Part shown: one piece after another, positions 35,163 through 59,334 of the stretch | How the letters are laid out: every line of letters starts with the position of its first letter | How positions within the stretch are numbered: the first letter of the stretch is position 1 | IMG/VR virus record: IMGVR_UViG_3300042569_002607 | Location: 1-64,000 of that record | Length of the DNA: 64,000 bases | Direction: 5' to 3' (one strand) | From: a virus | The notes under the pieces: generated by a model | What the model was told of the DNA's origin: nothing | The model's database searches: none | The model's input: only the letters and a program-made list of their open reading frames with translations | Made by a program: the position numbers and the translations under genes

Positions 35163-36218
35163 ATGGCTCACGAACTCGACACCCGCGACAACGGCGCCGC
35201 CGCCTTCGTCTCCCTCCGCCAGTCCGCGTGGCACCAGCTCGGCACGATCGCCGCCGACGAAATGACATTCGACGAAGCGATGCATCTGGGCGGACTCGAT
35301 TACCCGTTGGCCCTTCGTCCGCTCACCACGTCGCTGTCTATCGAAGGCGCGAACGGCGACGAAATCGATACGCTCGCGATCGACGTCCCGGGACATCGCG
35401 CCGTAGTCCGCGCGGACCGGAATCTGGTGCTTGGCGTGGTCTCCGATCGCTACGAACTGGTGACGAATCGCGAGGCCATGCAGATGGTGGACGTGCTCGT
35501 GAATGACGGCCTCGCCGTGATCGAAACGGCGGGCGTGCTTCGCGAAGGCGCTGATGCGTGGATGGCGCTGCGCTTCACCGGTGAGCAGATCGACGCGGCT
35601 GGCGAGAACGGCGGCGACGAGATCAAGTTCTACGGGCTGGTTCGCACGAATCACAACGGCAAGGCCTCGGTTCAGGTCGCGACGACCCCCGTGCGGGTGG
35701 TGTGCGCGAATACACTGGCCATGGCGCTGGGCAACGGGCAGACGACGGTCCGCAGCGTGCTCCACATGGGGGCACAGGCACGGAACAAGGTGCGCGACGC
35801 GGCGCAGTCGCTGTGGTCCGGCACGTTGCAGGACGCCGAGAAGATGGCGGCGGCGTTTGCCACGATGCGCCGCACAAGCATTTCCGAAGCGCAGTTCGAA
35901 ACCGCGGTACTCGATGTCCTCTGCCCCATGCCGGCCGAGCCGGACGCCGACGCGTCCAAGCTGGCCCACGCGCTGTTCCCGTCGCGCGTGCTGAAGGCCA
36001 CCGAAACGCGCTTCCGCATTCAGGAACTGTGGATCAGCGGCACCGGCCAGCAGGGCGCGTGCACCGCGTGGGATGCCTATAACGCCTGCACGGAAGCGCT
36101 GGACCACTTCGACGCGGTGACCGTGAAGGGCGAGCGCCTGACGGCGCTCCTGCCGACGGGCAAGCTCGCGCAGCTGAAGGCCACCGTGTTCGATCGCCTG
36201 CTGTCGCTGGCCGTCTGA
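35163..36218 (+). CDS. DUF932 phage/plasmid-like protein
   Basis: This 351-residue protein has NGAAAFVSLRQSAWHQLGT at the N-terminus and FYGLVRTNHNGKASVQVATT with PVRVVCANTLAMAL in the middle. This is the DUF932 (TIGR03299) family common in phages and plasmids. Its function is not established. The ATG follows a CCCGAGGA leader motif; an earlier in-frame start would lie inside the gap. A strong terminator follows it. Confidence 0.85.
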   Translation: MAHELDTRDNGAAAFVSLRQSAWHQLGTIAADEMTFDEAMHLGGLDYPLALRPLTTSLSIEGANGDEIDTLAIDVPGHRAVVRADRNLVLGVVSDRYELVTNREAMQMVDVLVNDGLAVIETAGVLREGADAWMALRFTGEQIDAAGENGGDEIKFYGLVRTNHNGKASVQVATTPVRVVCANTLAMALGNGQTTVRSVLHMGAQARNKVRDAAQSLWSGTLQDAEKMAAAFATMRRTSISEAQFETAVLDVLCPMPAEPDADASKLAHALFPSRVLKATETRFRIQELWISGTGQQGACTAWDAYNACTEALDHFDAVTVKGERLTALLPTGKLAQLKATVFDRLLSLAV

Positions 36219-36225
36219 TGACCTC

Positions 36226-36263
36226 ACGCCGGCGCGGGACACCACCCCGCGCCGGCGTCTTTT
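36226..36263 (+). terminator. Rho-independent terminator after the DUF932 gene
   Basis: A 13-bp perfect GC-rich stem, ACGCCGGCGCGGG (36226-36238) / CCCGCGCCGGCGT (36246-36258), with a 7-nt loop is followed by TCTTTT. It would end the DUF932 transcript a few bases after the stop codon, making this gene a separate transcription unit. Confidence 0.9.
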
Positions 36264-37577: not shown

Positions 37578-37905
37578 CGATCCCGCCTTCAAGCAATGGC
37601 TCGTCAGCGTCTCGGCGGCCGCCGCGCGTGAGCTGGCCGACGTCGTCACGCGCCCGTGTAGTGTGGCCGTCGTGCGCCGTGCCGTGCGCGCGGCGCTGCA
37701 GGACGACGCCTGTCCGTCGGACATCCGTGGCGAGCTCGTGACACACCTGACGCGTCTGACGAACGCGAACAAACCGGCGCGACGTGATGCGCCGGTGTTG
37801 GTGAAGTTCTCCGCCGAAGAAAAAGCGCGCGTGGCGGAGCGCGCCCGTGCCGCGAATGTCGCGGTGGCGACCTATATCCGGGCCTGTGCCCTAGGAGAAC
37901 TCTGA
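37567..37905 (+). CDS. Putative ribbon-helix-helix (MobC-like) protein
   Basis: In this 112-residue protein the C-terminal VLVKFSAEEKARVAERARAA followed by NVAVATYIRACAL is the strand-helix-helix pattern of RHH DNA-binding proteins such as mobilisation accessory proteins. It overlaps the upstream gene by 11 bp and ends at the ParB-like start. It might autoregulate this operon. Confidence 0.6.
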   Translation: MDHNDPAFKQWLVSVSAAAARELADVVTRPCSVAVVRRAVRAALQDDACPSDIRGELVTHLTRLTNANKPARRDAPVLVKFSAEEKARVAERARAANVAVATYIRACALGEL

Positions 37906-38561
37906 TGCCCCCGCGTTCCCCCGCGAACAAGTTGAGACCGCCGATGCCACCAGCCTCACCGGAAACGGCAGCGCTTACAATGCAGATGGTCCCAACTCTG
38001 TCCCTGCAGCCAGCGCCGTGGAACCCGCGGCGCATCGCGCCAGATGCGCGACAACGGCTGCGGGCAGGCATCGAACGGTTTGGCTTTGTACAACCCGTCA
38101 TCGCGCGCGAGGAGGACCGCCTCATTGTTGGCGGACATCAACGTTGGGACATCGCCGTTGAACTGCAGCTGCCCACCGTACCCGTCATCTTTCTCGCCGG
38201 TCTGACGGACGCGCGTGCAAAAGCGCTGGCCGTGCTGCTCAACAACAAAGATGCCCAGGGAGAGTGGGAGATGTCGTCGTTGACCGCTCTACTCGAGGAG
38301 CTTGCCGTGGATCCGCTGGAGGAGTTGCTGTCGGCGACTGGCTTCGAAGCGAGCTCGCTTGAAAAGCTGCTTGGGACTGGCGCGAGTGACGCGGCGGTGC
38401 TCACGCCGCTCGAAGTGCGGCCGCTCCCGAAGATGGTGTGGGTGCTGATCGGTGCGCCGTCTGGCCAGTACGCCGATATCGCCGACCGCGTCCAAGAGAT
38501 CGCGACCGTCTCGGGCATTCTGTGTGAGGTGGTGTCCAGTGACCACGGAGCGCCGGCGTGA
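37905..38561 (+). CDS. ParB-like (ParB/Srx fold) protein
   Basis: This 218-residue protein has the ParB N-terminal core at about residues 25-100: PAPWNPRRI, then GIERFGFVQPVIAREED, IVGGHQRWDIAVEL and VPVIFLAGLT. Phage members of this family often sit beside methyltransferases or DUF5131 proteins and may act as nucleases, NTPases or DNA-specificity factors. No HTH of a true partition ParB is visible. It is coupled to the next gene by GTGA. Confidence 0.8.
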   Translation: MPPRSPANKLRPPMPPASPETAALTMQMVPTLSLQPAPWNPRRIAPDARQRLRAGIERFGFVQPVIAREEDRLIVGGHQRWDIAVELQLPTVPVIFLAGLTDARAKALAVLLNNKDAQGEWEMSSLTALLEELAVDPLEELLSATGFEASSLEKLLGTGASDAAVLTPLEVRPLPKMVWVLIGAPSGQYADIADRVQEIATVSGILCEVVSSDHGAPA

Positions 38562-39205
38562 GCGGCACGGGCAAAGTCGACAACGACTACTTCGGCGCGA
38601 AGCTGGCGCTGCGTCGGTACTTCCTTCGCACCTACCACGCGGGGCAGACCACGAAGGTGTTCGATGCGTGCCAGGCGACAGGACAATTGTGGAAGACCCT
38701 GCGCCAGGAGTTCGCGGTCTCGTACTTCGGCGTGGATCGTACGCCGCAACCCGGACGCCTGCAGATCGACTCGGCGCGAGTGCTGGCCACGCCCGGGTGG
38801 TCGTTCGACGTGATCGACGTCGATACCTACGGCGCTCCGTGGACGCACTGGGAACAGATTCTTCGGCATGGCCGCGCGCCGGTGTCGGTGTTTCTGACGA
38901 TCGGTTCGACGATGTTCAACGGGAGCACCGACAACGTCGCGCTACGCGCGATTGGCCTCGGGCCGATCATCAGCAAGATCCCGCCGTCGTTTCGCCGCCG
39001 GCTTGACGAACTTGGCGTAGATTATTGTCTGGCAATGAGTTACACTTACCGCTGGCGCGTGGTTGACGCACAAGAGGCACCCCGTGGACGGTCTGCGCGG
39101 TACCTCGGTCTCCACTTGGTACCCGAGGCTGTCGGCACGTCCGTGCCAAACCCGCAAGCGACCGGACACCACCCGGCGCCTGCGTCACCTTTCCCGAGGA
39201 CCTGA
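38558..39205 (+). CDS. Methyltransferase-like protein (Rossmann core)
   Basis: This 215-residue protein has a GTG start overlapping the ParB-like stop. TKVFDACQATGQLWKTLRQE (motif I-like, with a degenerate glycine loop), SYFGVDRTP (motif II-like acidic strand end) and FDVIDVDTYGAPW (motif IV position) suggest a class I SAM-methyltransferase fold. A standard catalytic DPPY/NPPY is absent, so it could be inactive or a different enzyme. Coupling to the ParB-like gene suggests joint function. Confidence 0.6.
   Translation: MSGTGKVDNDYFGAKLALRRYFLRTYHAGQTTKVFDACQATGQLWKTLRQEFAVSYFGVDRTPQPGRLQIDSARVLATPGWSFDVIDVDTYGAPWTHWEQILRHGRAPVSVFLTIGSTMFNGSTDNVALRAIGLGPIISKIPPSFRRRLDELGVDYCLAMSYTYRWRVVDAQEAPRGRSARYLGLHLVPEAVGTSVPNPQATGHHPAPASPFPRT
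39141..39158 (-). promoter_or_regulatory. Conserved intergenic-type element, GGG subtype, minus strand
   Basis: The minus strand reads CTTGCGGGTTTGGCACGG, a perfect match to the GGG subtype. It overlaps the last codons of the methyltransferase-like gene and lies 50 bp before the DUF5131 start; a CTTTCCCGAGGA leader lies between. It is oriented against the gene it precedes. Confidence 0.75.
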
Positions 39206-39207
39206 AC

Positions 39208-40098
39208 ATGGCAGAAGGCTCAATCATCGCGTGGACCAATCACACCCTGAACCCGTGGATGGGGTGTCTCAAGATCAGCGACGGCTGTAAGAACTGTTAC
39301 GCCGACACGCTGGTCACCAATCGCATGAAGCTGAACGTGTGGGGGCCTGCCTCCACAACCACGCGTAAGGTGACCAGCGCCGCTATCTGGGCGAAGCCGC
39401 ACAGCTGGAATCGCGCCGCCGCAAAGGCTGACGAGGAGACGTTTGTGTTCTGCGCGTCGCTCTGTGACGTCTTCGAAGATCATCCGGTCGCAGACGCCAC
39501 GCGGCCACGTCTCTGGGACGTCATCCGCGCTACGCCGCATCTCACCTGGCAGCTCTTGACCAAACGTCCTGAGCGCATTGCGGCACACCTGCCAGCGGAT
39601 TGGGGTGAGGGCTGGCCCCACGTGTGGCTCGGCACGTCGATCGAGGACATGCGCGTGGCGAGTCGCGCGGATCATCTGCGCCGCGTGCCGGCGGTGGTGC
39701 GCTTCATCAGCTACGAGCCGGCGCTCGGCCCGCTCGACGATCTCAACCTGTCCGGCATCGATTGGGTTATCTACGGCGGGGAGTCGGGACCCGGGTATCG
39801 AGCGCACGATCTCGCGTGGCCGCGCGTTATGCGCGATCGCTGTGCCGCGGAAGGCGTTGCCTTCTTCTTCAAGCAGTCGGCCGCGCCGCGCACCGAGATG
39901 GGCATTCGACTCGACGGAGAGTTGATCCGCCTCTGGCCAACGCCACGCACGGTGCAGCATCCGTCTTTTCCGGACTACCGACCAGCCAGCATTCGCCGCA
40001 CCCCGCCGGATAAGGACTACTCCCCGCGCTACTCCACAACGACACCGGCGGAACCGCCGGCGCTCGGCGCCGAGATAGCGGAAGGGCTGCTGCTGTAG
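39208..40098 (+). CDS. DUF5131 (phage Gp37/Gp68-like) protein
   Basis: This 296-residue protein opens IAWTNHTLNPWMGC with Cys20, Cys27 and Cys30 (GC-x6-C-x2-CYA), reminiscent of a radical-SAM or iron-sulphur cysteine cluster. It continues with WQLLTKRPERI, WLGTSIED and DWVIYGGESGPGYR, the DUF5131 signature. The enzyme activity is unknown. It is usually encoded with ParB-like proteins, as here. Confidence 0.85.
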   Translation: MAEGSIIAWTNHTLNPWMGCLKISDGCKNCYADTLVTNRMKLNVWGPASTTTRKVTSAAIWAKPHSWNRAAAKADEETFVFCASLCDVFEDHPVADATRPRLWDVIRATPHLTWQLLTKRPERIAAHLPADWGEGWPHVWLGTSIEDMRVASRADHLRRVPAVVRFISYEPALGPLDDLNLSGIDWVIYGGESGPGYRAHDLAWPRVMRDRCAAEGVAFFFKQSAAPRTEMGIRLDGELIRLWPTPRTVQHPSFPDYRPASIRRTPPDKDYSPRYSTTTPAEPPALGAEIAEGLLL

Positions 40099-40109
40099 CG
40101 GCGCACGCG

Positions 40110-40592
40110 ATGAACGCGCCGCCGTATCCCGAACCGGTGAACGCGCCACGCGAGAAGCGACCGGATGGGTCGGTGCTGCTCCATGCAGCGCCGCCCCTGC
40201 GTCGCTTTCCCATCGCGGAAGCCCCAGGCTTCGCCGTCGAAGTCACCGATCGCCCCGAGGCGGTCTACTTGCTGGGGAAACCTGACGGCTCGGAGATCCC
40301 GGTCCCGTGCCGGCTCTGTGGCACCTGGAACCCTGCCACCATCAGTGGTCGGCACTTCTTCTACGCGTGGGAACCGGACGTCGCGCTCGAGCTCACCAGC
40401 GTGCGCCGCGTGGAGTGCCTTATCGGCCGCCTGGCGTTTCCCAGCGGCTGGGCGGCGTCGCCGTGGTTCGCGAACACGTCGCGCCGTGCCCTGCTCCGCC
40501 AGTTGAGTGCATTCACCGCGGCATTCCTCGACGAACGCCTCACGAAGTCGGTGGCACTCATGCGCGCGGTCTCACGGCAAGACGCGCGATAG
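40110..40592 (+). CDS. Hypothetical protein with CxxC
   Basis: This 160-residue protein has a Pro-rich start, a centre with VPCRLCGTWNPATI (one CxxC) and aromatic strands (HFFYAWEPDVALEL), and a helical C-terminus. It is the gene after DUF5131 in the same operon. Not recognised. Confidence 0.55.
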   Translation: MNAPPYPEPVNAPREKRPDGSVLLHAAPPLRRFPIAEAPGFAVEVTDRPEAVYLLGKPDGSEIPVPCRLCGTWNPATISGRHFFYAWEPDVALELTSVRRVECLIGRLAFPSGWAASPWFANTSRRALLRQLSAFTAAFLDERLTKSVALMRAVSRQDAR

Positions 40593-40639
40593 CGTCCAGA
40601 CTGGCGACGCCGGCTACGTGCGTCGCCTATCTTTATCTA

Positions 40640-40876
40640 ATGTCTCAACGATCCCCGAAGAAGCTGCGCATTGCCGATGACACGCCACTGGGGCACCTGA
40701 TTGGCGCCGAACTTCTCAGACCGCGAACCGTTACCGCGCTGACTCGCACGATGTGGACCGTGGGGCAGCTTCGCGCGTGGTGGCGAGATCACGAAGCCGG
40801 ATCGGCCGCGGTGCTGCCCTGGGTCGGCCCGGCGGCGATGGACGACATTCGCCGCGCCATGCGTCGGATCGCATGA
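40640..40876 (+). CDS. Small protein resembling the RNA polymerase alpha C-terminal domain
   Basis: This 78-residue protein's residues 20-75 (GAELLRPRTVTALTRTMW, TVGQLRAWW, then LPWVGPAAMDDIRRAM) follow the helix pattern of RpoA alpha-CTD / helix-hairpin-helix. The match includes the T.G.L turn and the conserved V/I.G..... DI.. end. It could bind DNA or act on host transcription. Assignment is by pattern only. Confidence 0.55.
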   Translation: MSQRSPKKLRIADDTPLGHLIGAELLRPRTVTALTRTMWTVGQLRAWWRDHEAGSAAVLPWVGPAAMDDIRRAMRRIA

Positions 40877-40978
40877 CGCCAGCCCTCCCACGTTTCCGGT
40901 CGGTCTTCGTCCGCCGCAAGTGACGCGAAGCAGCGCTCGCGGGCGCGGCGCGGGATGCGCGGCCGGTGACTTATCGCG

Positions 40979-41007
40979 TTGACAACATAGGGGTATGCCC
41001 CTATTTT
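40979..41007 (+). promoter_or_regulatory. Strong sigma70 promoter with an operator palindrome in its spacer
   Basis: TTGACA (40979-40984), a 17-bp spacer and TATTTT (41002-41007). The spacer and the first -10 bases hold a perfect inverted repeat ATAGGGG-TATG-CCCCTAT (40987-41004). A repressor bound there would directly block polymerase. The first gene downstream encodes an HTH protein (41074). Confidence 0.75.
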
Positions 41008-41073
41008 TATGGTGTCGGCGCGAGTGGCGCCGGCACGAACCGCCCACTGGGGCGCTGCCCCGAGGATACCGAG

Positions 41074-41685
41074 ATGACCGCTTTCTTTGCCGCCTACACC
41101 GACGCCATGATCTGCGCCGTCGGCACGTCGCCCGCCGAGGCCATCGCGACCGCTCGCCGCGAGATGCAGGAGCCGGACGCCGAGCTGGAGACGGCGCGCA
41201 TTTCCGAGACGCTGGCCGCGTACATCGCCAGCGGTCACACGCCCCGCCGCTGGGACATCGTCGGCGGCTCGCTCATCGACACGACGCACGCCGATGCCGA
41301 CGCCGATTTCGTGCGGTGCGACTCCGACGCGGGCGACGGCGGGTGGTCGCTCCACGCGCCGGACAGCACGGACGAGGATATTGCCGAGGGGCTCGCGCTC
41401 GAACTGGCCAGCGGCACCGGCAAGCCCACGCGGGAGGACTACGACCTCGCCCGGGCGCAGATGGCGAGCCCGGCCCGCGCGTCGACGTGGGCGCTTCGGC
41501 GCCTCGTCGCCGCCTCCGGCCTCACGCCGACCGAGCTGTCCCGCGTGCTGGGCCGCGATGACCGCACGATGCGCCGCTGGCTGTCGGGGGAGCAGGACGT
41601 GCCCGACACGCTGGCGCAGCAGGTCGCGCGGCTCCGCGTCACGGCGGTGGACCCGGAGTGGGTCCACCTGACGTATCGCCGCTGA
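41074..41685 (+). CDS. HTH-domain protein, probable autoregulator
   Basis: This 203-residue protein's N-terminal 130 residues are acidic and unrecognised. The C-terminus has a helix-turn-helix (ALRRLVAASGLTPTELSRVL, then GRDDRTMRRWLSGEQDVP) of the XRE/Cro type. The ATG is chosen because it follows CGAGGATACCGAG and the promoter at 40979. The upstream palindrome makes autoregulation plausible. Confidence 0.65.
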   Translation: MTAFFAAYTDAMICAVGTSPAEAIATARREMQEPDAELETARISETLAAYIASGHTPRRWDIVGGSLIDTTHADADADFVRCDSDAGDGGWSLHAPDSTDEDIAEGLALELASGTGKPTREDYDLARAQMASPARASTWALRRLVAASGLTPTELSRVLGRDDRTMRRWLSGEQDVPDTLAQQVARLRVTAVDPEWVHLTYRR

Positions 41686-42485
41686 TGGCGCGACCGAAAG
41701 CCACGGTCCCGGACGAGCCGCTCCCGAGCGAGGACTACATCACGCTGTTCGACGGGCAGGGAGCGAGCCCGTCGCGTGGCTACATGCTCGCGATGACGAT
41801 GGACGGCACGCACCGCAAGGTGTGGCACGGGGTCGCCAAGTACGGATCGTGGGCGGCGGCGCTTGCGGCCGCGCGTCAGGCGCGGGAAATCTGGCTGGCG
41901 ACGCGCGACCCGCAGGATGCCGTGCCCGGCCGGGGGAAGCGGGCGCATACGCGCGGGTGTCGGTATGACGCAGTGCGGCGGCAGTGGGTCGCACGCTGGA
42001 CCGATCCCATCGTGCGGCGCCTGTACTCCGTCGGCTGTGGCGACGGCGAGGCCGGCCGGGAGCGTGCCCACGCACTGCGCGCAGAGGCCGAATCCCGGAT
42101 TGCGTCGCATCGCCCGACGATGGACCTGGTGCCGCCGAGGGGACGGGCGCCGGCGATCCGGCGCCAGACGAAAGAGGCGCTGACAGAGCGGTTGGCCGAT
42201 CTCCAGCGCAAGATTTGGGCGCTCAAGTCGGAGCAGCACCGGGTGCGCCTGAGCCTGCGCGCGCTTGAGGGCGACGACGGGCCAGCGCCGGCCATGCCGC
42301 AGCACGAGAGCCGCACGCTCCGCGCCGAGGTCGCGCGCATGTCGCGGGCCGGGTACAGTGTGCGCGACATCGCGTCGCATCTCGGCATCACCGAGCGCGC
42401 GGTGTATTCGCACCGGCACAAGGCGGGGGTAGCGACGCCCAGAGCGGAAACGCCGGGCGAGCCGCAGCCGCCAGACGGGGGTTGA
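41685..42485 (+). CDS. AP2-like plus HTH DNA-binding protein
   Basis: This 266-residue protein is TGATG-coupled to the HTH gene. Two AP2-type units are visible: HRKVWHGVAKYGSWAAALAA (about residues 42-65) and RYDAVRRQWVARWTD with the following strand and helix (about 90-130). Near the C-terminus is an HTH (VARMSRAGYSVRDIASHLGI). AP2 domains in phages occur in homing endonucleases and regulators; no nuclease motif is seen, so a regulator is more likely. Confidence 0.65.
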   Translation: MARPKATVPDEPLPSEDYITLFDGQGASPSRGYMLAMTMDGTHRKVWHGVAKYGSWAAALAAARQAREIWLATRDPQDAVPGRGKRAHTRGCRYDAVRRQWVARWTDPIVRRLYSVGCGDGEAGRERAHALRAEAESRIASHRPTMDLVPPRGRAPAIRRQTKEALTERLADLQRKIWALKSEQHRVRLSLRALEGDDGPAPAMPQHESRTLRAEVARMSRAGYSVRDIASHLGITERAVYSHRHKAGVATPRAETPGEPQPPDGG

Positions 42486-42510
42486 CTAATTAGACGGTCA
42501 GTGTTATTAT
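42482..42510 (+). promoter_or_regulatory. Sigma70 promoter for the RadC-like gene
   Basis: TTGACT (42482-42487), a 17-bp spacer and TATTAT (42505-42510). The -35 overlaps the stop of the upstream gene. An ATCATGAT palindrome lies across the -10 end (42508-42515). The spacing is ideal and the region is AT-rich compared with its surroundings. Confidence 0.75.
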
Positions 42511-42581
42511 CATGATGTCGGGCGCAACGAGCGCTGACCAGTGGCGGGCCGCTGATTCGGTCCGGTAGCGCAGGAGCAACA

Positions 42582-43037
42582 ATGGAAGCTGTGTCCCTCC
42601 CCTCGTGGTGCCGCATTGTCCGGGAGACGTCGCCGGAGCTGGTGGCCGCGTTCGCCGCACGCCCGACAATCGCCGGCCCGACGGATGCGGCCGCGTACCT
42701 CGCCCCGCGCCTCGTCGCTGAAGAGGTTGAGGTGTTTGCGGTCATGATGCTCGACGCACAGAACCGTGTCATGGCGATGCACGAAGTCACGCGCGGGTTG
42801 GTAAACTCCTCGCTGGTCCATCCGCGTGAGGTGTTCCGGCTCGCGATTGCGGTCGGCGCGTCATCCATCATCGTCGCGCACAATCACCCGAGCGGCGTGC
42901 TGACGCCGAGCCCGGAAGACATCGAGGTCACGCGCGCGCTCGTGGCCGCCGGCGAAGTGCTGGACATCCCCGTCCGCGATCACCTGATCATCGGCCTCAG
43001 TGGCCACCGGTCGCTGGCGTCGGACGGGTACATCTGA
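42582..43037 (+). CDS. RadC-like JAB/MPN-domain protein
   Basis: This 151-residue protein is a RadC/JAB domain without the N-terminal helix-hairpin-helix of chromosomal RadC. The metal motif HNHPSG (near residue 100) and the downstream D (TPSPEDIEVTRAL) are intact, as is the upstream E (residue about 49). Single-domain RadC proteins are common on phages, plasmids and defence islands; the activity is not settled. It has its own promoter. Confidence 0.9.
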   Translation: MEAVSLPSWCRIVRETSPELVAAFAARPTIAGPTDAAAYLAPRLVAEEVEVFAVMMLDAQNRVMAMHEVTRGLVNSSLVHPREVFRLAIAVGASSIIVAHNHPSGVLTPSPEDIEVTRALVAAGEVLDIPVRDHLIIGLSGHRSLASDGYI

Positions 43038-43528: not shown

Positions 43529-43558
43529 TTGACGGTGGGACAAACGCCAGCGTAATTG
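43529..43558 (+). promoter_or_regulatory. Sigma70-like promoter for the ImmA/IrrE pair
   Basis: TTGACG (43529-43534), an 18-bp spacer and TAATTG (43553-43558). The inverted repeat TTGTT-GGAG-AACAA (43556-43569) overlaps the expected transcription start and could be an operator for the HTH-ImmA protein. The region is AT-rich. Confidence 0.55.
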
Positions 43559-43596
43559 TTGGAGAACAACGCGTTAGCAGTTTTTACCTGTGGAGT

Positions 43597-44235
43597 ATGC
43601 AAGATTTTTGCAGAAATTCCGACATCATTTCCGAGGTGAAAGTGTCCCACGCAAAGAGCTGGTGTGAGGCGGTGCGGCAGGCGGAAGCGCTGTGGATCGA
43701 CGCGATTATCGCTGCGGATGCACGACTGCCAATGGAGATTCGGCCTTTCCTGAACCTCAGCTTGGCGAAGCAGAATCTGTCGCACCTGATTCGGCGCGAG
43801 CTGATCCAGAGCGGCTTGCCCGTCGTGGCGCAGCCGTCCGGGAATTCCGATGTCGATTACTTCGTGCTGAAGGGGACGGCGGTAATCCGGGTGAAGGGCC
43901 TCAACAAGCAGGGAAGGCCGTCTAACTACGCGACAGATACCGCCCTGCAGTATCACCTTGGCGATGCGGTTGACAGCCTGCCGGATCTACCGCCGCTTCC
44001 GCGAGTCGATGTGTCGTACCATCTCGACGAGGTGCTCTTCGTGGTTCGCGCAGTGGAACTGCTCGAATGGCGAGAGAACCGCGCGGTTCGGCGCTACCAG
44101 TTGCCTGCGTTTGGGATGCCTCGGGAAATCGAGGTGGCCGAGGAGTTGCCGTTCGAAGTCGCGCCGGCGACCATTCGCCCGAAGCGCGAGGAGATGAACC
44201 GTCGTCGTCGCGCGAGGCGCGAAGGAGAATCGTGA
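43597..44235 (+). CDS. Hypothetical partner of the HTH-ImmA protein
   Basis: This 212-residue protein is coupled to the HTH-ImmA gene (GTGA). The central part (LIRRELIQSGLPVVAQPSGN, then DYFVLKGTAVIRVKG and VSYHLDEVLFVVRAVELLEW) is a beta-rich domain; the C-terminus is a very basic tail (MNRRRRARREGES). GC content is lower than in the surrounding genes. It is probably half of a two-gene module, possibly substrate, toxin or antitoxin; not recognised. Confidence 0.65.
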   Translation: MQDFCRNSDIISEVKVSHAKSWCEAVRQAEALWIDAIIAADARLPMEIRPFLNLSLAKQNLSHLIRRELIQSGLPVVAQPSGNSDVDYFVLKGTAVIRVKGLNKQGRPSNYATDTALQYHLGDAVDSLPDLPPLPRVDVSYHLDEVLFVVRAVELLEWRENRAVRRYQLPAFGMPREIEVAEELPFEVAPATIRPKREEMNRRRRARREGES

Positions 44236-45290
44236 ATAGGGTTCGGGTGAACGGGGAACTGTTGCAGCTGGCTCGCCAACGCGAAGGGCTGACGCAGACG
44301 ATGCTTGCCGAGCTCAGTGGAGTTGGGAGTCCGCTGATCTCTCGCGTGGAATCGGGCCTCGTCACGCACCTGCCAGAGGAGTCCGCACGCAAGTTGGCTG
44401 ACGCGACGCATGTGAGCGTGCGGTTTTTCGATAAAGACCCTACGGTGCGCCATCTCGGCTTCCATCGACTGTATCGTCTTCAGCGGAAAGTCGGCGTTCG
44501 CGCACTTGAGCGTCTTGAAAGCGAGATCAACGCACGTCGGCTTCACATAATCAGCCTGCTCAAGAAGTTCGACGTGGAACACGCGATGCCGTTGCCATCT
44601 CGCTCAGACTTTGAGGGCCTATCGCCGATGCAGGCCGCTCAGGAGATCCGCCGGATGTGGCTTGTAAAGCGCGGAGTCATCGGCCCCATCACGCCGTTAC
44701 TCGAGGCGGCAGGCATTCTCGTTGTTGAGGTCGATGTTGCAGAAAAGGCATTCGAAGGACTGGCGGTTCACGCCTTCGATGGCATTCCACTCGTTTTCGT
44801 TCGCAAGGGGCAAACCGCTGATCGGCGACGCTACACGCTCGCACATGAGCTGGCACACCTGCTGCTGCATCAGTCGACGACAGAAGAACAGGAGAAAGAA
44901 GCCGAAGAGTTCGCGGCCGAGCTGATCATGCCCGAAGAATATGCTCGGAATCTGTTGGCAAACTTCACCATCCAGAAGGCGCTGGAGCTCAAAGCTCGCT
45001 ACCAGATATCCGTACAGTTCTGCATCATGCGCGCAGCACAACTCGAACTCATCGGAAAAGACGAGAAGACGAGGCTGTTCAAGTATGTGTCCATGAAAGG
45101 CTGGCGGACCGAGGAACCGTATGCGATGCCTCCGGAACGACCGACCATCCTCAGTGACATTCTACGTTCAGTCATCAAGCAACTCGCCTATACGGTTGAA
45201 GAGCTCGCAGACGAGTTCGGCGAAACTCCAGATCGAGTGCGTGATTACTTCTTCACGGAAGATCAACCCAATCGCCTCCGCTTGGTGTGA
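44232..45290 (+). CDS. HTH-ImmA/IrrE family metallopeptidase
   Basis: This 352-residue protein has a GTG start overlapping the upstream stop. An XRE helix-turn-helix is at about residues 8-60 (ARQREGLTQTMLAELSGVG). A zinc peptidase core near residue 204 has TLAHELAHLLLH (HExxH) with the third ligand likely in EKEAEEFAAELIMP. ImmA/IrrE proteins cleave or inactivate repressors. Here it may control this module or phage induction, or form a toxin-antitoxin-like or defence module with its partner. Confidence 0.85.
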   Translation: MNRVRVNGELLQLARQREGLTQTMLAELSGVGSPLISRVESGLVTHLPEESARKLADATHVSVRFFDKDPTVRHLGFHRLYRLQRKVGVRALERLESEINARRLHIISLLKKFDVEHAMPLPSRSDFEGLSPMQAAQEIRRMWLVKRGVIGPITPLLEAAGILVVEVDVAEKAFEGLAVHAFDGIPLVFVRKGQTADRRRYTLAHELAHLLLHQSTTEEQEKEAEEFAAELIMPEEYARNLLANFTIQKALELKARYQISVQFCIMRAAQLELIGKDEKTRLFKYVSMKGWRTEEPYAMPPERPTILSDILRSVIKQLAYTVEELADEFGETPDRVRDYFFTEDQPNRLRLV

Positions 45291-45301
45291 GCCAAGAATC
45301 G

Positions 45302-45330
45302 AACGCCCCACCGTCACCGGTGGGGCGTTT
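45302..45330. terminator. Bidirectional terminator between convergent genes
   Basis: An 11-bp perfect stem AACGCCCCACC-GTCACC-GGTGGGGCGTT followed by T on the + strand lies between the + strand ImmA gene and the converging - strand gene. It can end transcripts from both sides. Confidence 0.85.
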
Positions 45331-45334
45331 GCAT

Positions 45335-45811
45335 TCACGGCTCTGGCTGCTTTGCGGCGAACGTTTTAGCAACTAGCGCGTGGGTTCGAAAGACACACGT
45401 AATTTGAAAGGCCATGCGAGAAGACATTGTGCCGTACGATTTGAACTGTTTGGGTATCGAGAGTTGCCCGATCAGGGCCTTTACATCATCGAATGAGTGG
45501 ATCGAAATCGTGTGGGCGAACTTGTTCCGGATTTTGAAGATGGTCCTGAGCTCTTGATGCTCATCGTCATCAATCAATCCAAAGGCGTGTGCGACCGTGA
45601 GATGCCGTGAAACTTGTTCTTCACACAGCGATCTAGCGGACGCGTTAGGCCTCGTGCTTGCGGCGATCAATCGCGCAAGCTGATCCTCAATCTGGCCGGC
45701 CAGCAGAATGGCCACCTCGCGATCGCTAAGAACGTTCCACGCATTGAAGCGGGTGTTCATTTCGGCGACCTGCTCAAGCAAGTCCCTTTCTTTCGAAGGC
45801 ACCTCAGTCAT
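45335..45811 (-). CDS. MltR/DUF4145-like helical protein
   Basis: This 158-residue protein starts at the ATG that overlaps the upstream minus-strand stop (ATGA); a longer frame begins at 45844. Its helices (ILLAGQIEDQLARLIAAS, then LRTIFKIRNKFAHTISI with the conserved IRNKFAH) match the pattern of MltR-type mannitol repressor-like and DUF4145 proteins, which are frequent in phage and defence contexts. The role is unknown. Confidence 0.65.
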   Translation of the reverse strand: MTEVPSKERDLLEQVAEMNTRFNAWNVLSDREVAILLAGQIEDQLARLIAASTRPNASARSLCEEQVSRHLTVAHAFGLIDDDEHQELRTIFKIRNKFAHTISIHSFDDVKALIGQLSIPKQFKSYGTMSSRMAFQITCVFRTHALVAKTFAAKQPEP

Positions 45812-46119
45812 AGCGGCGCCCACCTCGTCACCGCCCCAATCCACTTCCGCCCCGTCCCGCTGTCGTCATTCCACGTGACGATCACCTTGCACGCCCACGG
45901 CCCGGGACCCTGCAGGATGCGCAGCGCCGTCCGTTCGCCACGGCCGAGCGACGCGGGGAGCTCTCCGGCGAGCAGCTCCGAGACGTCGTCGCCGTTGTGC
46001 TCGAGTGTGCACCGCAGCTGCACCGCAGTGTCATCACCAGTGTTCTCGATCACCAGCTGGCGACGGTGTCCGGCTCCATCGGGGCGCGCGGAGAGGGCGG
46101 CGGATTTGCCGAAGGGCAT
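45808..46119 (-). CDS. Small hypothetical beta-rich protein
   Basis: This 103-residue leftward protein is coupled to the gene at 45335. Beta pattern (RQLVIENTGDDTAVQLRCTL, then ACKVIVTWNDDSG) like a small immunoglobulin-type domain. Not recognised. Confidence 0.55.
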   Translation of the reverse strand: MPFGKSAALSARPDGAGHRRQLVIENTGDDTAVQLRCTLEHNGDDVSELLAGELPASLGRGERTALRILQGPGPWACKVIVTWNDDSGTGRKWIGAVTRWAPL

Positions 46120-46938: not shown

Positions 46939-47265
46939 ATGCCCCGAATGGTGAAGCCGTCCGCGACCTGCTATTTCCGTCTTGAGCGCCCAATGCGCTT
47001 CCCCATCGCCGGCGAGGCTGGGGACTTCTTGGCCGTGATGCCGCCGGCCTTCCGTGAGAACCTCTGGATGCTGCAGGCGGAGTCGCTGTGGGTCATTCGC
47101 CGCCGCGCGTTTGAGGAAGGGAAGCTGTGGTCCATGCTGAACGACAAGGTCGACGATGGCACACTCACTTTGCTGCACGCTCCTGGTCGTCGGTTTTTAG
47201 GTCATCTGGTCGAATCTGGGCAGCTGTCGACTGCTCAAGCGCTTCGGGTGTTACGGGCGGGGTAG
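46939..47265 (+). CDS. Uncertain small protein between leftward genes
   Basis: From ATG 46939 this reads 108 residues; ATG at 46993 is an alternative start, and the frame is open back to 46879. The product (MRFPIAGEAGDFLAVMPPAF, LQAESLWVIRRRAFEEGKLW, then LLHAPGRRFLGHLVESGQLS) looks protein-like and could be helical. It overlaps the 3' end of the repressor gene by about 100 bp tail to tail, which lowers confidence. Confidence 0.4.
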   Translation: MPRMVKPSATCYFRLERPMRFPIAGEAGDFLAVMPPAFRENLWMLQAESLWVIRRRAFEEGKLWSMLNDKVDDGTLTLLHAPGRRFLGHLVESGQLSTAQALRVLRAG

Positions 47266-47644
47266 CCTTTCGCTCGCCAGAGGCGTCGACCGGCGCGCGC
47301 ATCGACTCTGCGATGGACGCGAGGCGCGCCGCGAGATCAACCGCGTATCCACGCGCTTCCTCGACACGCCCACGCCAGTAGTCGAGACTCTCAGAGCCCG
47401 TGACCAACAGCGCGTTCACCAGCGTTCCCGGCTCGAGCTCGTACGCTCGCTCTACGACGGACAAGGTTTCGTCCTCAAGTGGCAGACCACCGGTTTCCCA
47501 GTTGTACACCGTTTGTCGCGTCTTCCCGGACGCTCTGACAATGTCCGGAATGCTCTTGCCAGACTGTATGCGCGTCGACTGAAGAAAATGGCCGGCTCGC
47601 TGTCGGAGTAGTGTCAAATTTATACTTGACAGTTGACAATGCAC
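47165..47644 (-). CDS. XRE-family repressor (candidate phage immunity repressor)
   Basis: In this 159-residue leftward protein the helix-turn-helix is at about residues 28-60 (GKSIPDIVRASGKTRQTVYN, then WETGGLPLEDETLSVVERAY). The C-terminal half is helical with no visible cleavage domain, unlike lambda CI. It is divergent from an excisionase/Cro-like gene across operator-like repeats, the classic lysogeny switch layout. The start is uncertain: GTG 47644, or the TTG at 47617. Confidence 0.75.
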   Translation of the reverse strand: MHCQLSSINLTLLRQRAGHFLQSTRIQSGKSIPDIVRASGKTRQTVYNWETGGLPLEDETLSVVERAYELEPGTLVNALLVTGSESLDYWRGRVEEARGYAVDLAARLASIAESMRAPVDASGERKATPPVTPEALEQSTAAQIRPDDLKTDDQERAAK

Positions 47645-47697
47645 GGCTGTACACTTGTAAAGCGCCTGTTTAACAGGTGGATGCCAGTCGCTTTACA
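47611..47697. promoter_or_regulatory. Divergent switch region: promoter and nested operator repeats
   Basis: A rightward promoter is visible: TTGACA (47626-47631), 18 bp, TACACT (47650-47655). Leftward, TATAAAT occurs at about 47618-47624. Inverted repeats are TGTCAA...TTGACA (47612-47631), CCTGTT-T-AACAGG (47665-47677) and TGTAAAGCG (47656-47664) / CGCTTTACA (47689-47697), the last enclosing the previous one. These look like operators controlling both genes. Confidence 0.75.
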
Positions 47698-47706
47698 TGA
47701 GGATGT

Positions 47707-47988
47707 ATGCCCCGACACCAGTCTCCCGCCAAGCGCGCGACCGGAAAGAAGAAGCGGTCTCTCCCATGGAGTGGACCCATTCCGCTTGGTCCCATGTCGC
47801 TCCGGCTTGCCGCCAAGATCATTGGCGGCGTGAACTCCTATGGAGTGATGCGGTTGATCGCCGAAGGAGAATTGAGCGGCCAGAAGGTGCACAACACCGC
47901 CGGTGGCCATGCCCTCCAGGTTTTGGGGGAGTCGGTGGCCGCCTACGTGGCCAGGCGTGAGGCCGCGCCGCAGCGCGGTATCGCGTGA
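47707..47988 (+). CDS. Excisionase/Cro-like HTH protein
   Basis: This 93-residue protein has a basic N-terminus (RATGKKKRS) and a MerR/excisionase-type HTH (LRLAAKIIGGVNSYGVMRLI, then AEGELSGQKVHNTAGGHALQ). It faces the repressor across the operator region, so it may be the Cro-like or excisionase arm of the switch. ATG 47707 is preferred over 47697 because the alternative frame is not protein-like. Confidence 0.65.
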   Translation: MPRHQSPAKRATGKKKRSLPWSGPIPLGPMSLRLAAKIIGGVNSYGVMRLIAEGELSGQKVHNTAGGHALQVLGESVAAYVARREAAPQRGIA

Positions 47989-47990
47989 TC

Positions 47991-48473
47991 TCACGTCTTT
48001 CGTCCCCGTTCGCTGGCGCGGATGGCGCGCAGCGTCCTCCCGCTGATCTCCACACCATCCGGTGTGGTCTCCGGCCGCAGCAGGCAATCGGCCGGGATCT
48101 CGGGCGGCACGGCGCCAGAGAGGCGGCCATACGTCACCCAGCCGGGATCGACGGTCAGCCCGAAGTCCACGCGAGCCCACTGCACCAGCGCCATGATCAG
48201 ATCGGGGGTCCAGCGCCGATGCGAGCGCACCAGCCGCGAAACGGTCGTGTACGACTGGATGCTCTGCGAGTCGACGTAGGCATTGAGCCCTTCGGCGACC
48301 ACCGGATGGCTCAGGTGCGGGGTCTCGCGCGGCAAGTCGGCCCGCTGATCCAGCAACGACAAGACCAATCGGGCGCGGTTCGCCATCGCCAACTGCAGCG
48401 GGCTGGAGCTCCGCAGCGATTCGGAGGCGCCGTACTTCTTTCCGGACGGGCGGGATGTCGTAGCCATGGGCAA
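47991..48473 (-). CDS. Probable DNA-binding regulator
   Basis: This 160-residue leftward protein (ATG at 48467 is an alternative start) converges with the excisionase-like gene, with a two-base gap. The middle (YVDSQSIQSYTTVSRLVRSH, then RRWTPDLIMALVQWARVDFG) looks like an XRE-type HTH followed by LTVDPGWVTYG, a phrase typical of phage repressors. It could be a second regulator at the border of the recombination operon. Confidence 0.55.
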   Translation of the reverse strand: MPMATTSRPSGKKYGASESLRSSSPLQLAMANRARLVLSLLDQRADLPRETPHLSHPVVAEGLNAYVDSQSIQSYTTVSRLVRSHRRWTPDLIMALVQWARVDFGLTVDPGWVTYGRLSGAVPPEIPADCLLRPETTPDGVEISGRTLRAIRASERGRKT

Positions 48474-53790: not shown

Positions 53791-54162
53791 ATGGCACTCC
53801 CTTTGTTGGCAACATCAAGCATGGAAGAGCTGCTCGAGGAATGGGCACGTGATGCCGCGACGCTGCGCAAGCACGGCCAGTCCGCGCTCGCGCAGCAGTT
53901 GGAGACCGTGGTGACGCGCGTGCGTGAGGTCGCCGAAGAGTGGCTGGACACGCTCACTGAAGGAGAGGCCGCATTGTACTCGGGCCAGTCGACGCGATGG
54001 CTTGCACAGCGCTTCGAGTCGTACGCGCGTCGAGGACTGGCGTTCAAGCGTGGGCGCGCCCGTGTGTATCGCCGGTGTGCCCTCCCTCGGCGGTCAGAGA
54101 TCGTGGCGGCGTACGTGGCCGGCCAAGAGGCGGCGCGACAGACGCGTGCGGTGTCGCTGTGA
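53791..54162 (+). CDS. HTH protein upstream of the integrase (excisionase candidate)
   Basis: This 123-residue protein has an N-terminal helical region, then LTEGEAALYSGQSTRWLAQR and a basic strand (FKRGRARVYRRCALP), the order of an excisionase-type winged helix. It overlaps the integrase start by GTGA, so the two are made together, as with xis-int. It is a second excisionase candidate besides 47707. Confidence 0.55.
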   Translation: MALPLLATSSMEELLEEWARDAATLRKHGQSALAQQLETVVTRVREVAEEWLDTLTEGEAALYSGQSTRWLAQRFESYARRGLAFKRGRARVYRRCALPRRSEIVAAYVAGQEAARQTRAVSL

Positions 54163-55493
54163 GCGAGACGAAGGCGAGAAAGGAACTGTACCGCGCCGGC
54201 GGGCGCGGGGATCTCGTGCGTGTGGTGGTCGACACGGGCGAGAATCGCACGATCGTGTACTATCGCGACGCCGACGGCATCCCACGGAAGAAGAAGTATC
54301 CGAACACGAAGACGGGGCGCGATGCCGCCAGGGCCTTCGGCGAAGGGTGGTTGTCGGCGCGTGATCGCATGGTGCGCGAGCGGGCAACCGCCGCAATCAA
54401 TGCGGGACCAACGCTCACGGTCCGCGGGCTGTGGGACGCGTATAAGGCGGCGGAGTTCTCGCTCGAAGTCGGGCACGGGCTACGGGAAGCCACGCAGCGC
54501 TCGTACACCCAGCACTGGCGTCGCTTCGAGCTCTTCATCGGCAAAGATCGCTTGGCGGAGACAATCAAGGTCCCGGAGCTCGCCGAGTTGAAGCGGCAAG
54601 ACTTAGACGCCGAGCGCGCCCTGAATCAGATCAAGCAGACATTCAACGTGGTGCGCACCGTGTTTCGGTGGGGCGTCGAACAGGAGCTGATGATCCGCTC
54701 GCCGCTGGCGCTCATGCGGTGGAAGTCGCGCAAGGATGAACCCAAACCGCTGGAGCCCGACGAGTACACGGCGGACGAGAGCGAGCGCATCCTCGCCGCG
54801 TTGGACAAAACGGACACCCGCCAGTGGAAGGCGTGGGTGTTCGTGATGCTGGCCGCGCACTACGGCCAACGCGCCAACGCCGTGCTCCATCTCCGGTGGC
54901 AGGACATCGATTGGGAGGCGGGGATCATCCGGTGGCCGGGACGCTTCCAGAAGCAGGGGCGCGATCTCGTGCGCCCGATCCTGTGGGAGGCGTATTCCGC
55001 ACTGCTGACGGCGCAGCAGGAGCGGGAGCGGGCCGCCGGCTTCCGTCGCCTGAAGCACCACAAGAGCGCTCACAGCACTCGCGAGCGACTCGAGTCCGCG
55101 GACTGGGTCCTCTTTGCCGAGCGCGATCGCGCCAAGCCGATGTCGTACCAGTCGCTGCATTACCACATCTGCCAGGCGGAGATTCGCGCGAAGGTGGACG
55201 CGAAGCCCTACCGGAAGGCGCACGGGCTCCGGCGCATGTTGCTCGGCAAGGTGCTCGAAGAGACCGGCGACCGCGCGTTGGCGTTGGAAGTCATTGGCGA
55301 TCGCGATCTCTCGCAGCTGGCGAGCTATGACCGGCGCATCGACGTGCGGACGGCCGCTGCGCTCCGGCAGGTCAGCATCGAGGGGCAAATGGAAGCCAGT
55401 GCGAAACTGTCCCCGAAACGTCCCGACGTCCCCGAAAACGAAACGGCCCCCGGAGGACCGGAGGCCGTAACTTCAAACGTGGAGGCAACTTAG
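54159..55493 (+). CDS. int: Tyrosine integrase
   Basis: This 444-residue recombinase for site-specific integration has a core-binding domain (about residues 85-180) and a catalytic domain. The first Arg is in GQRANAVLHLRW (about 238), the HxLRR box in KAHGLRRMLLGKV (about 354-358) and the nucleophile Tyr in LASYDRR (about 389). The usual second His box (GH) reads GDRDLS, so that His is replaced. An extended C-terminus follows. The GTG start overlaps the HTH gene. Confidence 0.9.
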   Translation: MSETKARKELYRAGGRGDLVRVVVDTGENRTIVYYRDADGIPRKKKYPNTKTGRDAARAFGEGWLSARDRMVRERATAAINAGPTLTVRGLWDAYKAAEFSLEVGHGLREATQRSYTQHWRRFELFIGKDRLAETIKVPELAELKRQDLDAERALNQIKQTFNVVRTVFRWGVEQELMIRSPLALMRWKSRKDEPKPLEPDEYTADESERILAALDKTDTRQWKAWVFVMLAAHYGQRANAVLHLRWQDIDWEAGIIRWPGRFQKQGRDLVRPILWEAYSALLTAQQERERAAGFRRLKHHKSAHSTRERLESADWVLFAERDRAKPMSYQSLHYHICQAEIRAKVDAKPYRKAHGLRRMLLGKVLEETGDRALALEVIGDRDLSQLASYDRRIDVRTAAALRQVSIEGQMEASAKLSPKRPDVPENETAPGGPEAVTSNVEAT

Positions 55494-58371: not shown

Positions 58372-59334
58372 ATGCCTAACCTCTGCATCATCCCCGCGCG
58401 CGCACTCGCCGACGACCGCGTCACTCCGACCCAACTCCGCGTTCTCCTGGCGGTAGGCACCTTCACGTCCCGCGACGGCGGCGGCGTGTGGGCGAGCAAC
58501 GCCACCATTGCGGACGTGGCCGGCCTTCATGTGCGACACATGCGAGACGCCCTCAAGGCGCTCGTCAGCTTTGGCTATGTCCGCAAAATTGCTCGCCCAG
58601 GACGCACCGCCATTATGGCCATCGTCCTCGATGACCCCCTCGAACCACCCTGCACAGAATCCGTGCAGACCCGAAAAGTGAAGCCTTCGGCACCCTGCAC
58701 AGAATCCGTGCAGACCACCTCGCACGAGATCGGTGCACCCGGGTGCACGAAATCGGTGCACCAAACGACCTCCTTAGCGGCCCCAGTGAACGAGATCCTT
58801 TCAGCTGACGCTGAAAGGCCATCAGTCGGCGTAGACCCCGCAATGGTGTTTGACCTCGCCGAGGATGACGAACTGGTGGCCCCACCGATCGACAAGCGAG
58901 CCGTAGAAGCGCCGCCCAGACGCCGCGCACCAGCGAAGCCGAAACCGCCCGCGCAGTTCCCGCACTTCACGCCGGAGCTTCGTGGACAGCTTCTCACGAT
59001 TTGGGAAGAGGGCGTGCGTCCATTGGCCAACGGGGAGCACGGGCGACTGTTCGCGACGTTCGGCCCCTTCTTCCGGATGCCGGAAGCTGAGCGCCCCCCA
59101 GAGCATCCGCGCGACGCCGAGGTCATGGCAGCGCTCATGGAAATTCTTTCTGCTCGGGCCGATGGCTTAGGGGGCGACAAATACGGGTCCCCAACGTTCG
59201 CCGCTGAGAAGATCCGGCCAGTAGTCCACATCCTCCGAGAATGCACGTACGACCCTGCTGCTCGTCTCGAACGTGTTGATCGCGCGCTTGGGCTACGCCG
59301 TCACCCGTCAGCTGGTGGACCTTCGTTTCGCTAG
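58372..59334 (+). CDS. O-like replication initiator with internal origin
   Basis: This 320-residue protein has an N-terminal winged helix (residues 10-85; LRVLLAVGTFTSRDGGGVWA, then AGLHVRHMRDALKALVSFGY). A linker repeats CTESVQT/CTKSVHQ at about 93-130, coded by four iteron DNA repeats. The C-terminal domain (residues 190-300) is helical. Its position next to a DnaB-like helicase and the internal iterons match lambda O: it would bind its own gene as origin and load the helicase. Confidence 0.8.
   Translation: MPNLCIIPARALADDRVTPTQLRVLLAVGTFTSRDGGGVWASNATIADVAGLHVRHMRDALKALVSFGYVRKIARPGRTAIMAIVLDDPLEPPCTESVQTRKVKPSAPCTESVQTTSHEIGAPGCTKSVHQTTSLAAPVNEILSADAERPSVGVDPAMVFDLAEDDELVAPPIDKRAVEAPPRRRAPAKPKPPAQFPHFTPELRGQLLTIWEEGVRPLANGEHGRLFATFGPFFRMPEAERPPEHPRDAEVMAALMEILSARADGLGGDKYGSPTFAAEKIRPVVHILRECTYDPAARLERVDRALGLRRHPSAGGPSFR
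58651..58667 (+). repeat. Origin iteron 1
   Basis: TGCACAGAATCCGTGCA, a 17-bp imperfect palindrome (TGCAC/GTGCA arms) inside the initiator gene. The first of four iterons. Confidence 0.75.
58696..58712 (+). repeat. Origin iteron 2
   Basis: Exact copy of TGCACAGAATCCGTGCA, 45 bp from iteron 1. Confidence 0.75.
58721..58737 (+). repeat. Origin iteron 3
   Basis: CGCACGAGATCGGTGCA, a diverged copy, 25 bp from iteron 2. The palindrome GTGCAC-CCGG-GTGCAC (58733-58748) bridges iterons 3 and 4. Confidence 0.7.
58744..58760 (+). repeat. Origin iteron 4
   Basis: TGCACGAAATCGGTGCA, 23 bp from iteron 3. Spacing of about one to two helical turns between iterons 2-4 would place initiator on one face. 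Confidence 0.75.
58797..58818 (+). other. Inverted repeat next to the iterons (origin hairpin)
   Basis: A perfect 9-bp inverted repeat CCTTTCAGC-TGAC-GCTGAAAGG begins 36 bp after iteron 4. It may form a structure used in origin opening or helicase loading. It is the only perfect hairpin in the initiator gene that I noted. Confidence 0.65.

Follow-up and report, generated by a model that had tools for sequence, protein, structure and literature searches.

Two overlapping genes of a temperate phage probably form a toxin-antitoxin (TA) module of the RosmerTA type, with gene 2 as the RmrA antitoxin and gene 1 as a toxin that would represent a new RmrT family. The pair lies in a window of 64 kb (i.e. 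the whole stretch of DNA that was analysed) out of a virus record of 73,670 bases. This window encodes a terminase large subunit (1506-2969), a head morphogenesis gene, an integrase (53997-55493), a replication initiator (58372-59334) and a leftward HTH regulator (47165-47644, minus strand), a gene content indicating that the source is a temperate tailed phage or prophage. The kind of system is known (i.e. RosmerTA) and the novelty is an RmrT family that is unrecognised by present models. A stress switch, a TA-like unit or a defence module had originally been predicted; the TA and defence readings are well supported by family and synteny, whilst toxicity, neutralisation, autoregulation, the trigger and an antiphage effect are properties that we infer for the pair.

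In agreement with the prediction of two coupled genes, both are intact co-directional reading frames on the plus strand. Gene 1 (43597-44235) encodes 212 aa from an ATG start and overlaps by four bases (GTGA) with gene 2 (44232-45290), which encodes 352 aa from a GTG start preceded by AAGGAG. A promoter-like sequence of their own is present 5' of gene 1 (TTGACG-N16-CGTAAT, 43529-43556, plus strand), but the match is modest (9/12 consensus bases) and a standard promoter scan made no call there. The inverted repeat proposed for the start site (43556-43569, 5-bp arms) was discarded as a chance-level feature, with 35% of shuffles holding as many. Downstream, a hairpin with perfect 12-bp arms and a 4-nt loop (45302-45329; -36.2 kcal/mol over 55 nt) closes the gene pair, facing a convergent gene (45335-45844), and is likely a shared terminator of the convergent genes. 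Perfect hairpins with arms of at least 10 bp and loops of 3-8 number three in the 64 kb, this one among them. The strong bidirectional terminator of the original prediction is, to this extent, borne out as an exceptional hairpin between convergent genes, but a terminator scan made no call because the hairpin tail is just TTT. A further perfect hairpin (36226-36258; 13-bp arms, 7-nt loop) was observed 3' of an ORF ending at 36218. An Rfam scan of 40-50 kb and a tRNA scan found nothing. The GC content of the pair was 58.2% as compared to 65.8% for the window, within the lowest 2.3% of equal-length stretches. Low GC extends past the pair to ~47.6 kb, across the phage immunity region, and therefore does not single out the pair as an insert; the idea of an inserted moron keeps its low GC, but as a regional property that argues little for insertion.

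Gene 2 is a predicted RmrA-type antitoxin that combines an HTH with an M78 (ImmA/IrrE) domain, as foreseen in the description of a peptidase that also bears an HTH. Pfam scans detected HTH_3 (E 2e-12), i.e. an N-terminal Xre-type HTH (44265-44426, plus strand), and Peptidase_M78 (E 3e-17), i.e. an IrrE N-terminal-like peptidase domain (44703-45032, plus strand; PF06114, E 3.2e-17). The M78 domain contains an intact zinc-binding HELAH (H205-E206-L-A-H209; 44844-44858, plus strand), placing gene 2 among the M78 (ImmA/IrrE) metallopeptidases with HExxH, and this motif is intact in 68/68 RmrA that have a partner of the gene 1 family. Fourteen PADLOC models for RmrA, the RosmerTA antitoxin, matched gene 2 with a best E of 9.7e-51. 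The spr1629 repressor/antitoxin of NCBIfam (NF052239) shares the HTH and M78 domains and is a distant relative (residues 92-329, E 9e-27), but the score of 94 bits is far under the curated cut-off of 335 bits. The PADLOC model PD-Lambda-2_B gave a weak match restricted to the peptidase region (E 6e-5). PD-Lambda-2 includes an M78-type defence component, found as ImmA/IrrE in an antiphage screen (PMC9519451), but the match of gene 2 to this system is far weaker than that to RmrA.

Gene 1 had been described as a protein of no recognised family with a very basic tail. Both points held, as no match was obtained in Pfam, NCBIfam or PADLOC (the latter up to E 1) and the C-terminal end reads KREEMNRRRRARREGES. 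Used alone as a query, gene 1 retrieved nothing from viral, genome, plasmid or phage collections, and its family was reached via RmrA synteny only. Relatives of gene 2 on plasmids and phages nearly all have a ~200-aa hypothetical protein directly upstream, and several of these proteins are homologous to gene 1. Iteration of a profile over 175 fetched loci assembled a family of 59 distinct members, which come from four or more phyla and from plasmids and phages, and a profile HMM built without the window protein recovers gene 1 (E 8.7e-12). By sequence, gene 1 is a divergent member of this family and the window copy is the most diverged. An Acinetobacter phage member corresponds to phrog_15813 (unknown function). 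A PDB sequence match to fish ISG15-like proteins (E 7e-4) was put down to chance, since it was lost when the family profile was used. Another unrecognised family of partners (~225 aa) was observed 5' of alphaproteobacterial RmrA (L004 1849-2532, L007 1858-2535 and L015 1849-2532); its HHalign probability against the gene 1 family was 28% over 189 columns, and the L004 protein had no Pfam, PADLOC or PHROG match.

The original prediction had named a failure of the two genes to co-occur elsewhere as its refutation. This test was run and the genes do co-occur, with 59/59 family members encoded immediately 5' of an RmrA and no member anywhere else in the fetched DNA of the 175 loci. Searches from the partner side remove the bias of having begun from RmrA. 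In phage and plasmid records RmrA was next door in 14/14 cases (8 phage and 6 plasmid), and a partner-profile search of ~780 genomes found seven new genomes with an adjoining RmrA in 7/7, giving 21/21 overall. When RmrA sequences were ranked by their score against the clade profile, the partner accompanied 45/45 distinct sequences with ≥350 bits (nine of which had seeded this profile), at least 12/20 with 250-350 bits and 0/99 with <250 bits. Distances among RmrA and among their partners were correlated (Mantel r 0.78, p 2e-4). The gene 1 family is an obligate neighbour of RmrA and the pair is co-inherited.

Phyla are intermingled in the tree, a pattern that a mobile unit would be expected to give, and the pair is sparse, occurring in ~1% of genomes and on plasmids, phages and chromosomes. 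One locus in an Aquabacterium MAG (L198, 3897-9740) carries the pair directly after brxL, abutting a BREX brxL-pglZ operon whose PglZ and BrxL were confirmed by PDB matches; BREX was within 7 kb in 1/11 loci tested, such that few loci lie behind the defence-island link. The TA architecture and the occurrence on plasmids and prophages would also suit a module serving solely for plasmid or prophage maintenance (i.e. addiction) with no role in defence. This is rather unlikely given that the pair is also chromosomal, once beside BREX, and that other RosmerTA are antiphage, although the two roles are compatible.

Relationships between gene 1 and the known RmrT toxins were examined through the upstream slot. 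In RmrA relatives lacking the gene 1 family, this slot was occupied by a PADLOC RmrT toxin in 10/10 tested. Profile alignments of the gene 1 family with clusters of these alternative partners extend nearly end to end, and family-to-RmrT scores surpassed the reversed controls and, in each of six clusters, every one of 40 block shuffles. Taken as single sequences, the alternative partners outscored unrelated neighbour proteins of equal length (p 2e-5). The HHalign probabilities between the gene 1 family and the RmrT clusters were low (1-28%), and remote homology to RmrT is accordingly taken as supported, short of proof. No PADLOC RmrT model matched any of eight upstream partners of other RmrA (seven family members and that of L004). 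The obligate pairing with RmrA, the presence of RmrT in the same slot and the remote homology together make gene 1 most likely a putative toxin of a new RmrT family that current models miss.

RosmerTA in the broad sense comprises an RmrA and a variable toxin. The pair has this arrangement in that its HTH + M78 antitoxin belongs to the RmrA family and the two genes form an operon in which the partner takes the place of RmrT; detection by PADLOC takes matches to both RmrA and RmrT models, and here the RmrA models alone match. The module of Gordonia phage Kita, a RosmerTA that is experimentally toxic and antiphage, shares with the pair a toxin-first coupled arrangement, an RmrA antitoxin with HTH and M78 domains, a toxin slot of ~210 aa and carriage by a phage (PMC10440598). 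The partner differs from known RosmerTA toxins in being matched by no RmrT model, and a membrane segment is predicted in the Kita toxin, which depolarises membranes; gene 1, by contrast, is modelled as a soluble alpha/beta fold. Fusions of Xre and M78 domains were earlier predicted to be TA components, with HTH-M78 antitoxins accompanied by varied toxins (PMC2701414). These COG2856-Xre candidates resemble the pair in that a small partner gene adjoins an Xre-M78 fusion and in being frequent in phages and plasmids, but the partner there is a PIN or RelE toxin; either identity for gene 1 was rejected as a Pfam scan gave neither. Gene 1 is probably a toxin that stops the cell as a measure against rival phages.

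Control of the pair was addressed by examination of upstream sequences. The motif GGAATATTTT was matched at 9/10 positions or better upstream of the pair in 20/51 distinct loci, as compared to 0.6 in shuffles and none in a control stretch, and it formed a direct repeat with 10-13 bp spacing in eight loci. Among loci found later, 3/7 had a site of the GGAATATTTT or GGAATAATTT form against an expectation of 0.07. The motif was seen across phyla, often as a direct repeat ~11 bp apart (e.g. L016, L032, L024, L120, L194 and L195). A general inverted-repeat operator was not found across relatives, as p ≤ 0.05 was reached in just 7% of loci; what is conserved instead is the direct repeat. Conservation of GGAATATTTT across relatives suggests that the pair is autoregulated, with the motif as a putative operator for the RmrA HTH.

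The copy in the window departs from this pattern. The GGAATATTTT motif is absent upstream of its pair, the recognition helix of gene 2 has Ser at the position of Gln33 (kept in at least 85% of the clade), its RmrA forms the longest branch (2.41) in the tree of this family, and its gene 1 is without the family-consensus residues R59, R61 and W165. Together these features mark the window copy as an outlier that has changed jointly in toxin, antitoxin and operator, and the activity of its gene 1 could be altered given the three missing residues.

Strong regulation, to which the conserved promoter motif points, would also be expected of a switch of the ImmA/ImmR or IrrE/DdrO type, in which gene 1 or a different repressor would be cleaved or controlled by the M78 peptidase and phage induction would be tuned by gene 1 as a sensor or co-regulator. 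Cleavage of repressors by M78 proteases is proven in ICEBs1 and Deinococcus, the M78 metallopeptidase domain with an intact HExxH is common to those systems and gene 2, and the pair lies beside a phage immunity region with its own HTH regulator. Such a switch is nevertheless improbable: ImmA and IrrE act on a separate HTH repressor, whereas here a single protein unites HTH and peptidase and is paired with a non-HTH protein; the pair also occurs outside phages, on plasmids and chromosomes, with no fixed third regulator; and in relatives the slot of gene 1 is filled by RmrT toxins.

Structural models were generated with AlphaFold for gene 1 (pLDDT 79.6) and for a canonical family member, L096 (pLDDT 85.0, core >90). 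In comparisons with solved structures, restriction enzymes (e.g. NaeI, EcoRV, SwaI, BglI and HincII) ranked at the top for both. The gene 1 model aligned with EcoRV (Z 6.5, rmsd 4.5 over 142 residues) and SwaI (Z 6.5, rmsd 4.3 over 136 residues) and the L096 model with NaeI (Z 7.8, rmsd 3.5 over 133). For the alpha-beta-beta-beta-alpha-beta core of PD-(D/E)XK enzymes the best solved matches are thus restriction enzymes at Z 6.5-7.8, all below 8, a range that may reflect only a common arrangement. With neither model did a Foldseek match reach E 0.001 (E-values of at least 2e-3), and therefore no named fold is claimed. At the (D/E)-x-K place of restriction-endonuclease-like folds, conservation and the model identify an R-x-K in gene 1 (R98-V-K100; 43888-43896, plus strand) on strand 95-102. 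Across 44 weighted family clusters, this site has R in 84%, R or K in 91% and the K in 98%, and R98, K100, T113 and Y141 are among the most conserved residues of the family.

The catalytic D...(D/E)-x-K of PD-(D/E)XK enzymes is absent from gene 1, and no conserved core acid was found among the 44 clusters. Since Arg replaces the (D/E)-x-K acid and no core acid is conserved, metal-dependent cleavage is unlikely, and gene 1 is unlikely to be a metal-dependent nuclease. The ranking of restriction enzymes first by both models is what a DNA-acting nuclease effector of PD-(D/E)XK-like fold, kept inactive by RmrA, would give, but with every Z below 8, no Foldseek E under 2e-3 and an Arg in place of the acid, this effector is a distinctly unlikely identity for gene 1. 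A more specific form of the RosmerTA reading is put forward tentatively, as possible but doubtful: an undescribed cross-phylum RmrT family with a restriction-endonuclease-like fold, in which a basic R-x-K-[K/R] site has taken over from the metal-binding acid and the mechanism would hence be metal-independent or purely nucleic-acid-binding, with RmrA repressing via a tandem GGAATATTTT operator.

The genomic setting of the pair was also considered. The pair adjoins the phage immunity region, a place at which phages often keep rival-exclusion genes. This probable region (47165-48473) consists of the leftward HTH regulator and a short rightward ORF (47707-47988). Left of the pair, genes for a ParB-like protein, phrog_2045 (unknown function) and a RadC-like JAB protein are clustered (37905-43037). 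The convergent leftward gene (45335-45844, minus strand; GC 0.539, i.e. low) encodes 169 aa that include RNKFAH, which fits the R-x4-H pattern of HEPN domains, and has only distant relatives, namely gp48 of Burkholderia phage KS9 and an Acinetobacter plasmid gene; it could be another defence or regulatory gene.

Under the RosmerTA reading, genes 1 and 2 would be translated as a coupled pair, with RmrA binding and neutralising the putative toxin and, via its HTH, repressing the shared promoter. Infection by a rival phage, or stress, might then disturb the M78 domain or the complex such that toxin is freed or derepressed. The freed toxin would arrest growth of the cell, and this arrest would protect the prophage-bearing population and keep the element in the lineage.

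Calling of RosmerTA needs models for both antitoxin and toxin, and a whole class with an unrecognised toxin would consequently be missed by such tools. The ~60 family sequences, drawn from several phyla, together with the conserved promoter motif and the fold model make the mechanism and control of the toxin directly testable. The findings also add a temperate phage with a probable rival-exclusion module adjoining its immunity region.
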